Source of the DNA: Trichococcus alkaliphilus
GTDB lineage: Bacteria > Bacillota > Bacilli > Lactobacillales > Aerococcaceae
DNA length: 64,000 bases
Assembly: GCF_003008695.1 (NCBI RefSeq)
Contig: NZ_PXZT01000003.1
Location: forward strand, 65,439 to 129,438
Reading direction: 5' to 3'
Position 1 is the stretch's first letter. Each line of letters opens with the position of its first letter. The notes below the pieces were generated by a model that was not told where the DNA came from, ran no database searches, and saw only the letters and a program-made list of their open reading frames with translations. Positions 2,404 to 20,326 of this stretch are shown here, piece after piece. A program made the position numbers and the translations under genes.

Positions 2404-2531
2404 GCAAACATTTCTTATGAAATTATTTCAATCATCTTCATGCTTTCTTCACACTCGCGCTCTATAGTAGGTTCACAACATTCCTGCTGGGGATGATTCT
2501 TTACGATTTACTTAAGAGTAAGTTGAACCGC

Positions 2532-2566
2532 TTGCACAAAGAATAGTTTTGATTTAGAATAGTTTT
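2532..2566 (+). promoter_or_regulatory. marR-ftsH promoter with direct repeats
   Basis: TTGCAC (2532-2537), 17 bp and TAGAAT (2555-2560) form a promoter. The 10-mer GAATAGTTTT occurs twice, at 2541-2550 and 2557-2566, with starts 16 bp apart. One copy lies in the spacer and the other over the -10, a position suited to repression. Confidence 0.55.
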
Positions 2567-2605
2567 ACATCACAACCATTATCCGGAAAAGGAGCGGATT
2601 TCAAC

Positions 2606-3061
2606 ATGAAAATTGATTTTTTAAAAAAAGAGATCTGGGATCTGATGCGGACCATCCAAGTTTCCAAGGATACCGTGATGTGCCCGGTCGCTAAAGACTA
2701 TTGCATCACCCCGCTGCAATTGCGGATTTTGATGGAAATCAAGCTGAGCGAAGATCTGTCACTCAACCGTTTGGCGAAAGTAATGGATATGAACAACGGC
2801 AACGTCTCCACCATCTGCAAAAAACTGGAACAGCAAGGCTATCTCACGCGCGAACGGCGCGCGGATGACGAACGTTTCATCACGCTGAAACTTACCCCAA
2901 ATGGCCAAGCGATCCTTCAGAAAATGGAGCAGGATATTGAAAGTAAATACTGCTTGCTGATGGAAAGCGTGTCCGAGGAGCGGCTTGAAAAAATTGCAGT
3001 CGGCATCAAAGAATTGCAGCTTTTGATACAGGAAATGAACGAACAACAAAGAGAGGATTGA
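2606..3061 (+). CDS. MarR-family transcriptional regulator
   Basis: A 151-residue winged-helix regulator. The DNA-binding part runs from about residue 35 to 105 (LRILMEIKLSEDLSLNRLAKVM, then the wing with RRADDERFITLKLT). Flanking helices form the dimer interface. The start has AAAGGAG 10 bases upstream. Only 10 bp separate it from ftsH, so both are read from the promoter at 2532. The likely role is control of the protease downstream and of itself. The inducing ligand cannot be read from sequence. Confidence 0.9.
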   Translation: MKIDFLKKEIWDLMRTIQVSKDTVMCPVAKDYCITPLQLRILMEIKLSEDLSLNRLAKVMDMNNGNVSTICKKLEQQGYLTRERRADDERFITLKLTPNGQAILQKMEQDIESKYCLLMESVSEERLEKIAVGIKELQLLIQEMNEQQRED

Positions 3062-3071
3062 ATTGACATAA

Positions 3072-4946
3072 ATGGCAGATGACAAAAATAAAAACAATCG
3101 AAAATGGAATGTGAATTTGAACAACGAAAACCCCGATAAACGCAGAACGACAGCCTATTACTTGTTGATGGCATTGAGCGTCCTGATGTTTCTGAACTAT
3201 TTCGTATTGCCTAGCTACATGAACCGAAGCGTGGAGGAAGTGACTTACAGCACGTTCCTGAACCAAGTGTCGACGGGTGACGTATCCGAGGTCAAACTGG
3301 AGGATACCCAAATCACCTTCGTCGCGACCGATGACGCAGGCGACAAACAAGTCTACATCACCGGCCTGATCGATGATCCGACACTCGTCACCCGTCTGGA
3401 AGAAGCCGACGTGACCTTCAGCAAGGATATACCGACCGAAGCCTCCCCGATTCTTTCCATCTTGGTTTCTTGGGTCTTACCGCTCCTGCTGTTCTGGGGA
3501 TTGGGTAGCCTGTTAGGGAAACAGATGGCGAAACGGATGGGCGGCGGAGCCGGTGGCGCATTGTCATTCGGCAAGTCGAACGCCAAAGTCTACGTGAAGG
3601 CAGGCGATTCGAAAACATTCAAGGATGTAGCCGGACAGGACGAAGCCAAAGAAGCGCTTAGCGAAGTCGTCGATTACCTGCATCAACCGAAAAAATACCA
3701 GGATATCGGGGCCAAGAATCCGAAAGGCATCCTGCTGGTCGGACCTCCCGGAACCGGTAAAACCCTGTTGGCCCGCGCTGTCGCAGGCGAAGCCGATGTG
3801 CCGTTCTTCAGCATATCCGGTTCCGAATTCGTCGAAATGTTCGTCGGCCGCGGCGCTGCCAAAGTCCGCGACCTGTTCAAGGAAGCCAACGAAAAAGCCC
3901 CCTGTATCGTCTTCATAGATGAAATCGATACAATCGGTAAGAAACGCGATAACGGCGGCTACGGCGGGGGTAACGATGAGCGTGAGCAGACCTTGAACCA
4001 ACTGCTAGCGGAAATGGACGGCTTTGAAGCCAACAAAGGCATCATCCTCCTGGCCGCCACCAACCGTCCGGAATCCCTTGATGCTGCCCTACTGCGCCCG
4101 GGTCGTTTTGACCGTCGCGTACCGGTTGAACTGCCGGACTTGGCAGGACGCGAAGCCATCCTGAAAGTGCATGCAACGAACTACAAGATGGATCCTTCCA
4201 TCAATTACAATACGATCGCCCGCGCCACATCCGGTGCTTCCGGTGCCGAATTAGCGAACATCATCAACGAAGGTGGCCTGAGGGCAGTCCGTGAAGGCCG
4301 CACCGCCGTCACCCAAAGCGATTTGGAAGAATCTGTGGAAACCGTCATCGCCGGTTACCAACGCAAAAATGCGGTCATTTCTCCGAAAGAGAAAGAAATC
4401 ATCGCCTACCACGAAATCGGGCATGCGCTGATCGCTTCCAAGCAGACGGAATCCGCGCCGGTCCACAAAATCACGATCATTCCGCGCACTTCCGGTGCAC
4501 TCGGCTATACGATGCAGATTGAAGAAGGCGAAAAATCATTGATGACGAAACAGGAACTGTTCAACAAAATCGTCACTCTGGCAGGCGGTCGCGCCGCAGA
4601 AGAGATTGTCTTCGGCAGCATCACAACAGGCGCTTCAAACGATATCGAACAGATGACCAAAATGGCCCGCGCCATGATTACGCGATACGGCATGAGCGAT
4701 GCGTTCGACATGATGCAGATCGAAACCCAGACCAACAAATATCTGGGCGGAGACACTTCCATGAACGTATCCGCAGGAATGGCCGAACAGGTTGACAACG
4801 AAGTGCTGGACATCATCAAGAAAGCCCATGAAAAGGCCGCTGTCCTGCTGAGCGAAAACATCGAAAAGCTCCATGAACTGTCCCGCTTCCTGCTGGTCGA
4901 AGAGACCATCACCGGCGAGGAATTCATGAAAATAGTCGGTGAATAA
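3072..4946 (+). CDS. ftsH: FtsH-family ATP-dependent zinc metalloprotease
   Basis: A 624-residue membrane AAA+ protease that extracts and degrades membrane and regulatory proteins. A transmembrane helix at about 27-47 is followed by a short extracytoplasmic domain and a second helix at about 126-146. Walker A GPPGTGKT is at 224-231, Walker [10 protein letters not shown] about 60 residues later, and SRH ATNRP follows. The M41 zinc site HEIGH is at 447-451. The family's usual housekeeping copy sits beside tilS/hpt. This one is instead coupled to a MarR gene and has variant linker sequence ([15 protein letters not shown]), so it may be an accessory, inducible paralogue. A strong terminator follows. 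Confidence 0.93.
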
Positions 4947-4993
4947 TTTCTCTAAATCAGAGCTACCCGAAATGCTAACCTAAAATAAAAAGC

Positions 4994-5040
4994 AGGACCG
5001 CTACCTAAATCTCACTCGATTTAGGTAGCGGTCCTTTTTT
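4994..5040. terminator. Bidirectional terminator between ftsH and fructokinase
   Basis: A perfect 17-bp stem, AGGACCGCTACCTAAAT at 4994-5010 with its complement at 5019-5035, has an 8-base loop. A T-run follows on the right and an A-run lies on the left, so it can end both the ftsH unit and the convergent sugar operon. Confidence 0.9.
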
Positions 5041-5045
5041 ATGAT

Positions 5046-5999
5046 TTATCCTTCCAAGCTCAACACTTCTTGCAGGGTCGGGATGGATTGCATGCCGCCT
5101 GGTCGCGTCGTCACCAACGCGGCCACACGATTGGCGAAAGTTCCCATCTCGCGTATTTCATCCAGGCTGCAGTCTTCCCAATCGGCTTTGTTGGCTATCT
5201 GATAGAGGAAAGCACCGATGAACGAGTCGCCTGCCCCTGTCGTATCCACTGCTTGGACGCTTAGCCCTTCAACGCTGGCCTTCCCGCCTTTGAAGTACAG
5301 ATCCGCTCCATTTTTCCCTTTTGTAAAGATCAGCAGTTTCGGCTCCGTCTTCAACAATGCCGCTATCCCGTCCTCTTCTGAATCAGCTCCCGTTATGAAC
5401 GCCAATTCATCATCGCTGATTTTCAGGATGTCCGCATACGGAAGGAATTGCTGGATCGTCTGTTTCAGCATTTCCGGATCAGGCCACAGATTCAAGCGGA
5501 CATTCGGGTCGAAAACGATCGTCCCGCCTGCCTGTTTCATTTTTTCCAAGGCTGCAAGATGCGCATACTTTACTGGTGCTTCGATCAGATCGACCGAGCA
5601 AAAATGCAGGATGTCTGCAGCCGTGAAAACAAGCTCATTCAGCTCTTCCTTGTCCAACAGCATATCCGCGCTGGGATTGCGGTAGAAACTAAATTCGCGT
5701 TCCCCATTTTCCTGGAGCGACACAAACGCCAACGCCGTGTTTGCCTCAGCGGTCCTGAAAAGGTGATGAGTATCCACCTGATTCTGTTTGAGGACATCTG
5801 TCAGATAATCACCGAAGGCATCTTGGCCCACTTTGCCGATGAAGCTCGCGTTTCCGCCCAGGCGGCTGACCGTCACAGCCACATTCGCCGGCGCCCCTCC
5901 CGGTTGCTTGGTAAAGCTCTGGACCTCTTTCAAAGGTACGCCGATTTCACTCGGGAAAAAATCAATCAGTATTTCTCCAATCGTATAAACTCTCCGCAT
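5046..5999 (-). CDS. PfkB-family fructokinase
   Basis: A 317-residue ribokinase-fold sugar kinase. It has the N-terminal substrate motif GGAPANVAV (34-42) and the C-terminal PfkB signature with the anion hole and catalytic base GAGD at 255-258 (Asp258). As the last gene of the GH32 operon it most likely phosphorylates fructose released from beta-fructosides to fructose-6-phosphate. The ATG at 5999 has GAAGGAGA 4 bases upstream, and the open frame beyond it lacks family similarity. The gap to the GH32 stop codon is short (about 54 bp), consistent with co-transcription. Confidence 0.9.
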   Translation of the reverse strand: MRRVYTIGEILIDFFPSEIGVPLKEVQSFTKQPGGAPANVAVTVSRLGGNASFIGKVGQDAFGDYLTDVLKQNQVDTHHLFRTAEANTALAFVSLQENGEREFSFYRNPSADMLLDKEELNELVFTAADILHFCSVDLIEAPVKYAHLAALEKMKQAGGTIVFDPNVRLNLWPDPEMLKQTIQQFLPYADILKISDDELAFITGADSEEDGIAALLKTEPKLLIFTKGKNGADLYFKGGKASVEGLSVQAVDTTGAGDSFIGAFLYQIANKADWEDCSLDEIREMGTFANRVAALVTTRPGGMQSIPTLQEVLSLEG

Positions 6000-6053
6000 A
6001 ACGTCTCCTTCATTCCTAAAATATTTGTCCGGCACAGCTAACTGCACACCCGA

Positions 6054-7565
6054 TTAAATGAAGGGCGTAAAAGTCGCTTCCTCAAAAACAGCTTTGCCGC
6101 TGCACTCAAAGGAAATGCCTGTCGCTTTTTCGGTAGGATAAACATTCGCGGTCATGACCGCTTCGCCGTTCTTCTCAAATACTTCAACCGACGAACTGTC
6201 CAAGTAAATGGCGAGTTCAAGATAATCCCGCTCTCCGGACAACACAACTCTCCGGCTGACGGGAGGTGTCGCTTCTTCACCCTTCAGGACGATGCCGCTT
6301 GCTGATCGGTCGATTCCTAATTCATTCTTTGCTTTGTCATAGTAGACTATGGTTCTTTCGTTCTCGTTCTCACGGAGATGGATGGACAGTTTTTCCAATC
6401 CGGACGTGTCCACTTTCAGCGTCAGCAATCCGCAATCCCCTGCGATACCAGGGATTGTTTCTTTGGCATCTGCCATCGTGATCACCGGGCTGATTTCTCC
6501 CTGATTGTCGCTATTCGCTACGATGCCGATCGGATATTGCTTCAACTTGCCATCTTCCCATTTCAGCTCTCTCGGGATCGTCATCGATCCTGTCCAGCCG
6601 TGGCCCAGCTCATCTGTCGGGAAATTTCTTCCCCACATCTGCATCCAACCGATGCAGATCCTTCTGCCTTTGTCGTCCTCAAGGCTTTGGGGAGCATAGT
6701 AATCCAAACCGTGATCCAATTCTTGATAACTTTCCGGGTGGAACTGTTTCGTCGCCCAATCCACCTCGCCGACAGCCAGTACCGACGCATTCAGATTCTG
6801 ATAGTCGTCCCCATCCTGCGGCCATTGCATCGGCGAGAAGATCAGGCAATCTTTCCCATCCAAGTGGAAGAAATCCGGGCATTCCCACATGATCCCTTGC
6901 TCTTTGTTCCCCTTCAGGAAGACGGAGGCAAACTCCCATTCCACCAAGTCAGCAGATTGGTAAAGTAAAATCTGCCCTGTCTCGTCGCCAGCCTTGGAGG
7001 CGACTACCGTATAGTACATGCCTTCGTGTTCAAAAACTTTAGGATCCCGGAAATCGATCTGGGAAGCATCTGCCGGTAAAGCCGCAACCGGGATGACCGG
7101 ATTTTGCTGCACTTTCTCGAAGTGCAGACCATCCTCCGACACCGCCAGACACTGCACCTGGTGATGGACGCCTTCTTCATTGGCTTCGGTCACTCCTGTG
7201 TAAAGCAGATACAGTTTCCCATCTCGTTCGATGGCGCTTCCTGAGAAACAACCGAACCGGTCATACGCCTGATCCGGCGCCAAGGCGACAGGCAAGTCTT
7301 CCCAATGGATCAAGTCCGTCGACTTCATGTGGCCCCAATGCATCGGGCCCCATTTCGCATCATAGGGATGGAATTGATAAAACAGGTGGTACGCCCCTTG
7401 GTACTGGACGAAGCCGTTCGGATCGTTCATCCAGCCCACTGGCGGTGATGCATGGTAGTGATTCCGGTAAAGAGGATTCACTATCCCTTTATTTTCTGCT
7501 ATGTATCGGTTGGCCCGCTCTGTTGAATAGGCCACTTGGCTTTGAATGCTCACGCTATCCCTCAT
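6054..7565 (-). CDS. Glycoside hydrolase family 32 beta-fructosidase
   Basis: A 503-residue enzyme with the GH32 five-bladed propeller and C-terminal beta-sandwich. The nucleophile motif WMNDPNG is at 45-51 (Asp48), the RDP transition-state motif at 173-175, and the acid/base WEC at 227-229 (Glu228). There is no signal peptide, so it acts in the cytoplasm. It cleaves fructose from sucrose, sucrose-6-phosphate or short fructo-oligosaccharides. The neighbouring ABC transporter, rather than a PTS, argues for non-phosphorylated substrate. The ribosome-binding site before the ATG is weak, so expression may depend on coupling to the upstream binding-protein gene 29 bp away. Confidence 0.92.
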   Translation of the reverse strand: MRDSVSIQSQVAYSTERANRYIAENKGIVNPLYRNHYHASPPVGWMNDPNGFVQYQGAYHLFYQFHPYDAKWGPMHWGHMKSTDLIHWEDLPVALAPDQAYDRFGCFSGSAIERDGKLYLLYTGVTEANEEGVHHQVQCLAVSEDGLHFEKVQQNPVIPVAALPADASQIDFRDPKVFEHEGMYYTVVASKAGDETGQILLYQSADLVEWEFASVFLKGNKEQGIMWECPDFFHLDGKDCLIFSPMQWPQDGDDYQNLNASVLAVGEVDWATKQFHPESYQELDHGLDYYAPQSLEDDKGRRICIGWMQMWGRNFPTDELGHGWTGSMTIPRELKWEDGKLKQYPIGIVANSDNQGEISPVITMADAKETIPGIAGDCGLLTLKVDTSGLEKLSIHLRENENERTIVYYDKAKNELGIDRSASGIVLKGEEATPPVSRRVVLSGERDYLELAIYLDSSSVEVFEKNGEAVMTANVYPTEKATGISFECSGKAVFEEATFTPFI

Positions 7566-17386: not shown

Positions 17387-17503
17387 GGTGCAATAATCAG
17401 TTTAATCTGTATTCGATATTGACTTGGAGTCCACTTCAAGTGCTAGTCTGAATACAAAAGCTGATTGATTCCGTTGCAAAGACTTGCGAAAGAAGTTGAT
17501 CCG

Positions 17504-17872
17504 ATGACGAATACTATGAAATTACTGATTGATGGGATCGCATATACAGTTAACCTGAAGGAAGAACATACTATTGAAACATTCGCTCTGCAAGATCCCA
17601 TCGAGCTGACGTTCAAAAGATATGCCAATCAGGAATATTATGCACCGTTGCCGAAGCTGCTCCCGATTTCGGGAATGCCTACAACAAACATTGTCCATGC
17701 GGGCGGACTCTATTGTTATGCAGGATTCGGTGTTTTCGCCATTCCATTCGAGGATGCGCCCTTACATCCCTATGAAGCTATGCACCTTGGCGACATTAAT
17801 GAAGATATCAGCTCCCATTTGGCAATGGCGGGCAATACCGTCATCGCCAACGTAGAAATCGTTGTTACTTGA
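17504..17872 (+). CDS. Cyclophilin-like fold protein
   Basis: A 122-residue protein resembling the small bacterial cyclophilin-like family. The strand KLLIDGIAYTVNL opens the protein, followed by the segment DPIELTFKRYANQEYYAPLPKL and the core HAGGLYCYAGFGVFAIPFEDA. The closing segment HLGDINEDISSHL is the usual end of the fold. The family has no proven activity here, and proline-isomerase residues of true cyclophilins are not evident. A partial ribosome-binding site (GAAAGAAG) precedes the ATG at 17504; ATG 17516 is an alternative. It stands alone after the tRNA. Confidence 0.7.
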   Translation: MTNTMKLLIDGIAYTVNLKEEHTIETFALQDPIELTFKRYANQEYYAPLPKLLPISGMPTTNIVHAGGLYCYAGFGVFAIPFEDAPLHPYEAMHLGDINEDISSHLAMAGNTVIANVEIVVT

Positions 17873-18162: not shown

Positions 18163-18846
18163 ATGAAAAAAAAAATAAGTCAAAAAAATCGGGCAAAGCA
18201 ACGGAGAATCGCTACGCTGATTGGCATCCCGGTACTGCTATTCGTATCCGGCATTACGCTGCTTTCCTTGGCTTTTTTTGATAATGTCTCCTACGCTCTT
18301 AACATATCTCGGATGTTTTTCCCACAAGAAGTCGCCATCAATCAGACTAATCTGAGCGACAGCAGTGTGATTGTGACAGAGACAACCACAGTGAACCAAC
18401 TCTCTTTCCCGAAATATGGGGATGAATATGGGACGCTGAACGTGGATGCGGCAGGCATCGTCTCGCCTGTTTTCGTTGGCGACGGTGCAACCCAATTGTT
18501 AGATGGTGCCGGTCAATATTATGGTTCAGTTTTTCCGGGGGATATCGGAAACACAGTCATCACCGGGCACACCAATTCGGTCTTCAAGACGCTGGATGAA
18601 GCGCAGATTGGTGATGAAATCCGCCTCGAGCTGACCTACGGAACCTATATGTATGAAATCAGCAACATCGAAATCAAGAGCAGTACCGACGAAAGTATAC
18701 TGGCACCTTCCGAAGAACAAATTTTGACTTTGTACACTTATTATCCTTTCGACTACATCGGTAACACACCTGACAGATATGTCGTGACCGCAAAATTGGT
18801 CGAAGGTAAGCCACTGTCGGAAATCAATTTTCAAGGAGAATCGTGA
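18163..18846 (+). CDS. Sortase-like protein lacking the catalytic cysteine
   Basis: A 227-residue, membrane-anchored protein with a basic N-terminus, a transmembrane segment at about 16-38 and a sortase beta-barrel. The catalytic His is present (ITGH, His136) and so is the Arg (DRYVV, Arg205). The active-site TLxTC motif, however, reads TLYTY: residue 193 is Tyr (TAT at 18739-18741) where Cys (TGT/TGC) is required. The residues after His are also atypical (GHTNSVF instead of GHRDTxF). Transpeptidase activity is therefore not expected. It may be a structural or regulatory pseudo-enzyme, or be decaying. The start at 18163 is 7 bases after GGAG; ATG 18160 is the alternative. It overlaps the next gene by one base. 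Confidence 0.85.
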   Translation: MKKKISQKNRAKQRRIATLIGIPVLLFVSGITLLSLAFFDNVSYALNISRMFFPQEVAINQTNLSDSSVIVTETTTVNQLSFPKYGDEYGTLNVDAAGIVSPVFVGDGATQLLDGAGQYYGSVFPGDIGNTVITGHTNSVFKTLDEAQIGDEIRLELTYGTYMYEISNIEIKSSTDESILAPSEEQILTLYTYYPFDYIGNTPDRYVVTAKLVEGKPLSEINFQGES

Positions 18847-19763
18847 TGCGAAACATAAAAAAAATCGGCAGAGTGATCCTCAGCTTTCTCCTGATGTTTG
18901 TAGTGGTTACCTTGATCGGAGTCATTTTCATGAAGCTAGTCCTGCTGAACGCAAGCGACCTCAATCAGCAGTTGGAAGATAGCTCCTATTACACTCAAAT
19001 AGAGGAAAGCCTGTCCGCTAAATTCAAGACGTTGAGCCTGGAAACGTCCATACCTGAGGAAGTCTTCATCGAAGCTGCGATGGACCCATATGGCTTGCGA
19101 CAGCTTGTCCGCACGAACAATGAACAAGCGCTCAATTATCTGATTGACCCCGACGCAACTTACGCAATGAAGATTGATCGTAGCCTATTCGAGGAACCCG
19201 TGACGGCTTATGTTGAGAATTATGCCGCAGAGCACAACCAACCGTTCGATAAAATCTTGCAAGCGCAGACCGGTGCTATCATTGATGAAGCCACCGCCAT
19301 TGTCGGCAGCCATACAATGCTGTTCAATCTGGATAACGTCATTGCTTACCCGCAATTCCAGACCTTCAGAAAAATGCTGCAAACCGTTCTTGCTTATTTC
19401 TATCTCGTACCGTTGACCTTCTTTTTGATTGCCGGGACACTCGTCTGCCTGAATTGGAAACTGCCTTACCGCTCCCTGATTTGGATCGGCAGCAGCTTGG
19501 TTTCCGGATCTGCCTTCATCATCATCCCAGCAATCGTGGCGTTGAGCCTTAAGATTCCGCAACGCATCACTGTTTCAGCGGATTACATCAACACTGCCCT
19601 GCGCACGTTGGCAATGCATTATACTGCATTTTTGCTGGCAACCGGGGCACTGGTCTTCTTTTTGGGGATAGCCTGCCTTGTGGGCTACAGTCTAATCAGC
19701 AAGGCCAAGCGAGCTGCCTACCGCCAAAATCGTGCCAGCACGGCCGAAATGGAACAATACTGA
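18846..19763 (+). CDS. Membrane protein of sortase operon
   Basis: A 305-residue protein I cannot assign. A transmembrane helix at about 10-32 is followed by an extracytoplasmic domain of about 150 residues (acidic, helix-rich, with EESLSAKFKTLSLETSIPEEVF). Three further helices follow at about 180-200, 210-235 and 257-280, and a basic cytoplasmic tail. The ATG at 18846 shares its A with the TGA of the sortase-like gene and has AAGGAG 7 bases upstream. Co-transcription with the degenerate sortase and the small secreted protein suggests a shared cell-envelope role. Confidence 0.75.
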   Translation: MRNIKKIGRVILSFLLMFVVVTLIGVIFMKLVLLNASDLNQQLEDSSYYTQIEESLSAKFKTLSLETSIPEEVFIEAAMDPYGLRQLVRTNNEQALNYLIDPDATYAMKIDRSLFEEPVTAYVENYAAEHNQPFDKILQAQTGAIIDEATAIVGSHTMLFNLDNVIAYPQFQTFRKMLQTVLAYFYLVPLTFFLIAGTLVCLNWKLPYRSLIWIGSSLVSGSAFIIIPAIVALSLKIPQRITVSADYINTALRTLAMHYTAFLLATGALVFFLGIACLVGYSLISKAKRAAYRQNRASTAEMEQY

Positions 19764-19803
19764 TTTAGCATCGGGACAGATGCATTGAAAGGAGGTGAAA
19801 AAT

Positions 19804-20217
19804 ATGAAAAAAATCATCGTATCTCTTTTGTTTGCATTCGTGTTGTTCTTCGGAGCGCAAGCGAATGTTGCTGCTGCAACTGAAAATGATATCATCAAAA
19901 CTTTGGTAGCCACCAACTTACCATCCAATTATGTGCAGCAAGCAAAAAATTATTTAAGGTCCAATGATGTGACTGCTGAAGAAGCGAATCAAATCATTGT
20001 CCACATAAATAATGCACAAGCTATCGTGAATGCACGTGGAGCGAAAAGCATGAATCAACTTACGAAAGCTGATAAACAAGCCATCTTAGCTGAGCTTACT
20101 GCAACTGCTGCTGTGTTGGATATTACTGTTACTGTGACTTCAAAAGAAGTTGTTTTTAGTGGTGCAGACGACACTATTGTCGCTGCTTTCCCGACAAAGG
20201 GAAATGGCGTAAAATAG
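19804..20217 (+). CDS. Small secreted protein of sortase operon, no sorting signal
   Basis: A 137-residue protein with a clear signal peptide (MKKIIVSLLFAFVLFFG, cleavage near ANVAAA). A helical domain (about 30-100) and a beta-rich tail follow. It resembles, from memory, secreted proteins found beside class D-type sortases that normally end with an LPXTG motif, a hydrophobic segment and basic residues. Here the protein stops at KGNGVK, and no sorting signal appears in any of the three frames just downstream. The ribosome-binding site AAAGGAGGTG is very strong, so it may be highly expressed and simply released. Confidence 0.75.
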   Translation: MKKIIVSLLFAFVLFFGAQANVAAATENDIIKTLVATNLPSNYVQQAKNYLRSNDVTAEEANQIIVHINNAQAIVNARGAKSMNQLTKADKQAILAELTATAAVLDITVTVTSKEVVFSGADDTIVAAFPTKGNGVK

Positions 20218-20262
20218 TGTGGAAGCTTAAGCGCACGTCGCTGAGTTTGCATAATCGATTGT

Positions 20263-20326
20263 AAAACACCCTTGGATAGACGGAGACCCCATCATGGGCC
20301 CTCGGCTGTGCAGGGGTGTTTTTTTG
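20263..20326 (+). terminator. Terminator after sortase operon
   Basis: AAAACACCC and GGGGTGTTTTTTT close a long, partly structured loop (GGGCCC/GACCCC region), followed by seven T residues. Confidence 0.75.

Follow-up and report, generated by a model that had tools for sequence, protein, structure and literature searches.

A sortase homologue lacking its catalytic cysteine and a secreted protein lacking its sorting signal in one operon of Trichococcus

We analyzed a three-gene operon in a 64 000-nucleotide stretch of DNA from Trichococcus alkaliphilus (contig NZ_PXZT01000003.1, positions 65 439 to 129 438 of the forward strand); this whole stretch is called the window, and its numbering is used in Table 1. 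The operon encodes a sortase-like protein, a membrane protein and a small secreted protein that starts with a signal-peptide-like sequence (judged by eye). A preliminary description, prepared from the sequence alone, regarded the reading frames, ribosome-binding sites and terminator as intact, and this was borne out: the ribosome-binding sites were recognized by eye, and the terminator was supported by folding (z = –4.27), although it was not reported by a simple terminator scan. The secreted and membrane proteins had no convincing match in Pfam or NCBIfam (best E = 0.0018).

Table 1. Positions of the operon features in the window
Feature	Position	Strand	Evidence
Pseudosortase, class D-like, C193Y, N-terminal membrane segment (by eye), 227 aa	18163..18846	+	PF04203, 81.1 bits; alignment with 2ln7
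Codon 193, which is TAT (Tyr) here and TGT in Cys copies, at the site of the catalytic Cys	18739..18741	+	Codon-level alignment (6 Tyr genes, 4 Cys genes)
Middle membrane protein, 305 aa, about 4 membrane segments and an extracellular part (by eye)	18846..19763	+	Homologue adjoins the sortase in 44/44 out-of-genus loci
Small secreted protein, 137 aa, former sortase substrate	19804..20217	+	Ends at TAG replacing the Gln codon of VKQTG
TAG stop; CAG/CAA (Gln of KQTG) in anchored copies; tail DNA after the stop deleted	20215..20217	+	Alignment of 12 copies
Intrinsic terminator of the operon; same position in most relatives (by eye)	~20262..20325	+	Fold of –34.5 kcal/mol, z = –4.27

The first protein contains a sortase domain (Pfam Sortase, E = 7.4e-23, against a cut-off of 26.6 bits), and its closest solved relative is the class D sortase 2ln7 (E = 1.3e-21). 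It missed the curated class D cut-offs, scoring 134.4 bits on the SrtD model (cut-off 140) and 120.2 bits on the class D model (cut-off 165); siblings with Cys scored 140.9 and 145.5 bits on the former and 128.9 and 136.4 bits on the latter. In the alignment with 2ln7, the block TLTTCYPFDYIG reads TLYTYYPFDYIG and TLYTYYPF falls on TLTTCYPF; Tyr193 therefore occupies the site of the catalytic Cys, and the window protein lacks the Cys of TLxTC. The preliminary description had noted this replacement of an obligatory residue together with the retention of the catalytic His136 and Arg205, and both observations held: His136 and Arg205 align with those of the family and are present in all six Tyr193 copies that we found. 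When 395 Lactobacillales genomes were searched with the sortase, 69 had a match at 1e-20; 48 places outside the genus exceeded 190 bits, 45 of these were fetched (G182, G261 and G308 were left out), and 44 loci, selected as strong sortase matches, were read. Cys was found at site 193 in all 48 other homologues reaching it (44 from outside the genus and four from Trichococcus). In the 34 columns where at least 90% of these homologues agree, the six Tyr193 proteins deviate only at Cys193 and at position 137, where their Thr also occurs in the Trichococcus Cys copies; the change at Cys193 is thus the sole one unique to the Tyr193 clade. As expected of a pseudoenzyme, an essential catalytic residue has been lost and the remaining conserved residues of the domain have been kept. 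A new active-site Cys elsewhere in the protein, which the preliminary description had named as a possible objection, was ruled out, since no Cys occurs anywhere in the window protein or in any of the six Tyr193 copies.

The secreted protein of the window ends in ...KGNGVK; the DNA behind its stop codon contains no sorting tail, the corresponding stretch having been deleted. Beside every Cys sortase of the genus, the secreted protein runs GNDVKQTG(A/S)NN(L/V)YLAGGI...VVAKKRF..., comprising a signal, a hydrophobic segment and a basic tail. The other eight Trichococcus copies end in KGNG(V/I)K followed by TAG, at the position of the Gln codon of KQTG, which is CAG in three anchored copies and CAA in T. 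palustris. The tail DNA after the TAG is deleted in five Tyr193 genomes, mostly deleted in T. flocculiformis, broken in the first copy of T. collinsii and still in frame in T. ilyis. Outside the genus, the secreted proteins carry [VIM]K[NQTAK]TG near the end, with Lys at the place of Pro in 44 of 44, followed by the hydrophobic segment and tail (L127 was counted by eye as PVVKTTG, the script's last match, GVASSTG, being spurious). The combination of [VIM]KxTG, hydrophobic segment and basic tail was therefore seen in all 44 out-of-genus proteins and in four Trichococcus copies, and is missing from the window copy, which ends at VK. The preliminary description had correctly stated that the protein ends without these elements and that proteins of this type usually carry a sorting signal; the LPXTG that it expected has to be replaced by VKQTG as the ancestral signal. 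In T. ilyis (L037, 2523–3100), an entire sorting tail lies in frame behind the TAG and the operon sortase is gone, which looks like the result of recombination between tandem copies or of a later separate event. Readthrough of the TAG, which was considered for this in-frame tail, was rejected given the deletion of the tail in the five Tyr193 genomes and its breakage or near-complete deletion in two other copies.

We then compared the state of the two genes across Trichococcus. The secreted protein was matched in 12 of 13 genomes, including one (G001) with an internal remnant only; no match was found in G007, which is 51% complete. Tyr193 is present in six of the ten full-length sortase copies, namely those of the window genome (G000), Trichococcus sp. 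K1Tr (G003), T. paludicola (G006), T. pasteurii (G011), a record labelled Sedimentibacter sp. SX930 (G012) and the upstream copy of T. collinsii (G004), and Cys193 in the remaining four, those of G002, G005, T. palustris (G009) and the downstream copy of T. collinsii. All four secreted proteins with a VKQTG tail adjoin a Cys sortase, and all eight truncated ones are accompanied by a Tyr193 (six), truncated (one) or absent (one) sortase; the latter two, in T. flocculiformis (G010) and T. ilyis (G008), no longer carry codon 193. The preliminary description had suggested a recent joint loss of anchoring. The losses are indeed joint, as Cys and signal disappeared together in one copy lineage and were kept together in the other. 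However, a recent date finds no support: the Tyr form is common to six species, and about 113 synonymous changes have accumulated in the Tyr193 clade. The other Tyr193 proteins differ from that of the window by 8–11%, and synonymous differences are spread over the full length of the gene, including the surroundings of codon 193. A sequencing or assembly error, or a mutation of a single strain, found no support and is refuted by the identical Tyr codon across six genomes; given six Tyr and four Cys copies in close relatives, we attach practically no probability to it. The record behind the Sedimentibacter label (MUZD01000004.1, L034) carries a Trichococcus locus, with neighbouring proteins 89–99% identical to those of the window; probably the record is mislabelled or its assembly is a mixture.

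The arrangement of the copies and their trees bear on how events followed one another. In T. collinsii, the Tyr193 operon lies upstream of the Cys193 operon in a tandem pair, and in G002 the remains of a broken sortase gene precede the Cys operon. The Tyr193 sortase genes were monophyletic both in the first 120 codons (support 100/98) and in the remainder without codon 193 (99/99), and the Tyr193 sortases together with that of T. flocculiformis formed one clade (98/97). In contrast, a tree of flanking genes, from which the sir2 row of G003 was excluded for matching in two frames, placed the Cys genome G005 together with the Tyr genome G012 (support 100/100) and, less securely, the Cys genome G002 together with the Tyr genome G003 (84/92); its other branches were poorly resolved. 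This discordance would fit a dead version with Tyr and stop that arose late and was passed among species through recombination; the low rates of amino-acid change described below would then reflect selection that preceded the loss. Such a spread is difficult to reconcile with the 8–11% divergence of the Tyr193 proteins, with synonymous differences that extend to the vicinity of codon 193, or with Tyr193 monophyly in both gene parts, and we regard it as improbable. Moreover, the tandem copies of T. collinsii and the upstream remnant of G002 allow differential loss to explain the discordant flanks. In our reading, the operon was duplicated in tandem and the copies were then lost reciprocally; interspecies recombination would fit the pattern as well.

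To evaluate whether the disabled gene has been maintained, selection was estimated with our own codon model (GY94-type, F3x4, with branch classes) for six Tyr193 and four Cys sortase genes, using ω, the ratio of nonsynonymous to synonymous substitution rates, and 2ΔlnL, twice the log-likelihood difference. The sortase models exclude the G002 fragment and the truncated gene of T. flocculiformis, the membrane-protein model excludes the fragment in the first copy of T. collinsii, and G001 (secreted-protein remnant only) and G007 are in none of the models. For the sortase domain (residues 84–215), ω was 0.109 in the Tyr193 clade and 0.083 elsewhere, a non-significant difference (2ΔlnL = 0.64), and ω = 1 was rejected for the Tyr193 clade (2ΔlnL = 75.6), as expected for retention under purifying selection. 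Likewise, ω = 1 was rejected for the whole sortase of the clade (2ΔlnL = 74.3) and for the truncated secreted protein (2ΔlnL = 51.5), whose ω was 0.293, against 0.294 in the other copies. The N-terminus and membrane segment of the sortase also did not differ significantly (0.387 in Tyr193 copies versus 0.245, 2ΔlnL = 1.0). Along with the 113 synonymous changes, about 77 amino-acid changes were inferred in the Tyr193 clade, against a neutral expectation of 303, and 9.2 nonsense mutations would be expected under neutrality, whereas none was found in the six copies; since these copies were preselected as intact, the latter comparison is no more than indicative. These likelihood tests presuppose that a single tree holds for the entire gene, an assumption that recombination could upset.

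On the stem of the Tyr193 clade, the domain evolved faster (ω of 0.30 versus 0.06 in the background, 2ΔlnL = 6.1), at a rate not distinguishable from 1 (2ΔlnL = 1.6). Domain differences of the clade include Y114D, A134T, G145D and Q177(E/D), and the net charge of the domain is –12 to –15 in Tyr193 copies compared with –11 to –12 in Cys copies. The burst on the stem, together with the retention of the conserved columns, His136 and Arg205 among them, would be compatible with a protein that is still an enzyme, using Tyr193 or another residue as nucleophile or catalyzing another reaction. However, the protein is free of Cys and the neighbouring substrate has no signal, which makes this very improbable; we know of no sortase with a Tyr nucleophile.

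Because selection on the domain since the loss is not distinguishable from that on active enzymes, a working pseudosortase is the most likely interpretation. We consider it probable that anchoring was jointly lost long ago in one operon copy and that the sortase has been retained since then as a non-catalytic pseudosortase whose partner is soluble, and the disabled sortase probably has a second, non-enzymatic job. That it is a true pseudosortase binding the soluble former substrate or the membrane partner, and that the parent operon is a separate, undescribed VKxTG anchoring module, seems to us about evenly balanced. At the level of sequence, the two losses, their co-occurrence, the single Tyr193 clade and the continued selection are evident. 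Knowledge of the family suggests that transpeptidation has been lost and that the secreted protein is released, and a binding role of the Tyr193 domain, like the choice of its binding partner, may be proposed. Thus, the new non-catalytic role raised in the preliminary description gains no more than indirect support, from the purifying selection to which the sortase domain remains subject. The partner that it proposed, the membrane protein, is a plausible one, since sortase and membrane genes occur together in all 44 out-of-genus loci, but less so in view of the faster evolution of the extracellular part in the Tyr193 lineage and the fragment left in T. collinsii.

Several observations weigh against this interpretation. 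The chief doubt is that two lineages have dispensed with the sortase but not with the secreted protein, and that drift affects the membrane partner. In T. flocculiformis, the sortase is truncated by a deletion reaching into the membrane gene; in T. ilyis, sortase and membrane genes are absent and the upstream region is fused directly to the secreted-protein gene. Since the secreted protein persists in both, these two lines can do without the pseudosortase. The joint loss happened once, in a single lineage, and does not form a repeated pattern, the sortase having been lost later in two truncated lines, and the truncated secreted proteins form one clade with modest support (83/87). As the flanking genes group Tyr193 with Cys species, recombination or differential loss has acted. 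For the whole sortase, ω was higher in the Tyr193 clade than elsewhere (0.253 versus 0.134, 2ΔlnL = 9.3), mainly because of the linker (0.464 versus 0.140, 2ΔlnL = 7.8). The membrane protein is relaxed in the Tyr193 lineage (0.334 versus 0.167, 2ΔlnL = 14.5), most strongly in its extracellular part (0.474 versus 0.177), and the Tyr193 copy of T. collinsii retains a mere fragment of the membrane gene. Selection against a misfolded membrane protein could likewise keep ω below 1, and no usable structure of the sortase was obtained (AlphaFold2 with an alignment of seven close rows gave a predicted local distance difference test score, pLDDT, of 42.3 and a predicted template modelling score, pTM, of 0.36, and the model was not used). 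The loss of the sortase at two truncated-type loci, the loss of most of a membrane gene in one Tyr193 copy and the raised ω of linker and membrane partner would all be accounted for if the gene were a slow-dying relic, functionless since the joint loss and persisting because little time has elapsed or because a misfolded membrane protein is costly. We regard such a relic as unlikely, though it is the strongest of the alternatives, given a domain ω that cannot be told apart from that of the active enzymes and is far from 1, and the absence of the roughly nine nonsense mutations that neutrality predicts, although the copies had been picked as intact.

If the pseudosortase is indeed at work, the events may be envisaged as follows. 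The ancestral operon would have encoded a small protein for export together with its dedicated sortase, of class D-like type, and a partner spanning the membrane several times; by homology, the exported protein would have been cut between the Thr and Gly of VKQTG through Cys193 and attached to the wall. After tandem duplication within Trichococcus, one copy lineage would have acquired, in either order, the change of Cys193 to Tyr (TGT to TAT) and that of the Gln codon to a stop. Its sortase would then be unable to form the thioacyl intermediate, and its secreted product would be released rather than anchored. The Tyr193 domain may now act without catalysis as a membrane-held, extracellular, sortase-shaped binder, which probably holds or hands over the exported protein or works with the membrane partner.

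The related operons outside the genus show what the parent system may have looked like. Using sortase, membrane-protein and secreted-protein profiles that we built from the Trichococcus genes and four of the 44 loci, sortase and membrane genes were found to adjoin in 44 of 44 loci and the secreted-protein gene to accompany them in 43. The gene order is secreted protein–sortase–membrane protein outside the genus and sortase–membrane protein–secreted protein in Trichococcus. Cys is present in 44 of the 45 sortase genes at these loci, and in one locus (L106) the membrane gene lies in two frames. The partnership within the operon and the conservation of the motif suggest VKxTG as the recognition signal of the parent sortase, and the conserved, unnamed three-gene operon (L104–L143, L065–L068) possibly represents a new sortase substrate class. 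In another genus (L124 of G143, 2461–6888), the whole operon is tandemly duplicated, both copies having Cys and VKATG. In another family of the order (L142 of G102, 2414–3776), an in-frame TAA precedes the still-present TGT of the sortase, the membrane gene is truncated and no secreted protein was found beside the decaying pair; this is another lineage losing the system.

Beyond these loci, two sortases from the set comprising weaker out-of-genus matches (about 90–112 bits) and the second sortase of G002 were read (L069 and L071); both have Cys, with neither a secreted-protein nor a membrane-protein gene seen next to them. Among 398 genomes drawn from the whole phylum, the membrane protein was matched at 1e-6 in its own genome and in G773 only, where a Cys sortase adjoins the homologue and no open reading frame for a secreted protein of at least 90 residues was seen in the 3.8-kb locus. 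A search of plasmids with the sortase returned 29 records, all below 60% identity and mostly from Bacillus and Priestia, and among the matches listed most were annotated as class D sortase; no further sortase relatives were found in the viral_contigs scanned with the sortase alignment. No solved relative was found for one out-of-genus secreted protein, and one membrane protein gave a chance-level match (E = 0.095). PADLOC returned a single weak match, AbiEi (E = 0.0099), on the membrane-protein homologue of L068.

Two neighbourhoods were also noted in the T. alkaliphilus genome. Directly upstream of the operon lies a gene for a cyclophilin-like protein (window 17498–17869, + strand; PF18050, E = 5.4e-14), which is shortened or not found in several relatives, so that the region appears prone to rearrangement. 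The other sortase found in the genome is of class B (TIGR03064, 182.5 bits against a cut-off of 153.75), with Cys in TLMTCN, and its neighbour is a divergent fasciclin-domain protein with VAQTG, a hydrophobic segment and a KKK tail at its C-terminus (both genes in L002, contig C18 of G000, 1489–2999); judging from these features, the two are likely an enzyme–substrate pair with another signal lacking Pro. PF00746 had no match above its cut-off in this genome (two fell below it).

Among known systems, SrtD (2ln7) shares with the Tyr193 protein the domain, by profile, and the TLxTxYPFDYIG and DRY blocks, whereas in the window operon the catalytic Cys is replaced by Tyr and the protein's own substrate has no sorting signal; the signal attributed to class D is LPXTA (PMC5148588), compared with VKxTG in the parent operon. 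The operon of other Lactobacillales has a homologous sortase with adjacent membrane and secreted-protein genes, as in the window, but differs in its Cys, its full sorting tail and its gene order. According to a 2016 paper, every sortase characterized by that time relies on a PXT core, class E with its LAXTG standing apart (PMC5148588). Class E thus resembles the parent operon in the replacement of Pro at P3 of the signal (PMC5148588) and differs from it in having Ala rather than Lys there and in being actinobacterial; its active-site Cys is present. Of the precedents that we checked, SipA from group A Streptococcus comes nearest; this signal-peptidase-like protein, which has no catalytic Ser and Lys, is reported to be essential for pilus assembly and has been proposed to be a chaperone (PMC2797073). 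Like the pseudosortase, it resembles an enzyme, belongs to a cluster for the assembly of surface proteins and has no catalytic residues; it is a member of the signal peptidase family and not a sortase. Its S. suis counterpart is reported to keep the catalytic residues and not to be needed for polymerization (PMC2797073). In open-access papers, we found no description of an inactive sortase, a sortase without its catalytic Cys, a non-catalytic class D sortase, a pseudosortase or a VKXTG-type signal, and only unrelated literature on sortase together with pseudoenzymes or with Trichococcus.

Sortases are defined by their Cys. A lineage that has lost this residue and nevertheless remains under selection of the strength seen in active enzymes would represent a sortase pseudoenzyme, apparently undescribed as far as open-access papers are concerned. 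The Cys and Tyr193 copies lying side by side in T. collinsii provide a ready-made natural comparison. In addition, the parent operon suggests an anchoring module with Lys at P3, in departure from the PXT core stated in PMC5148588.
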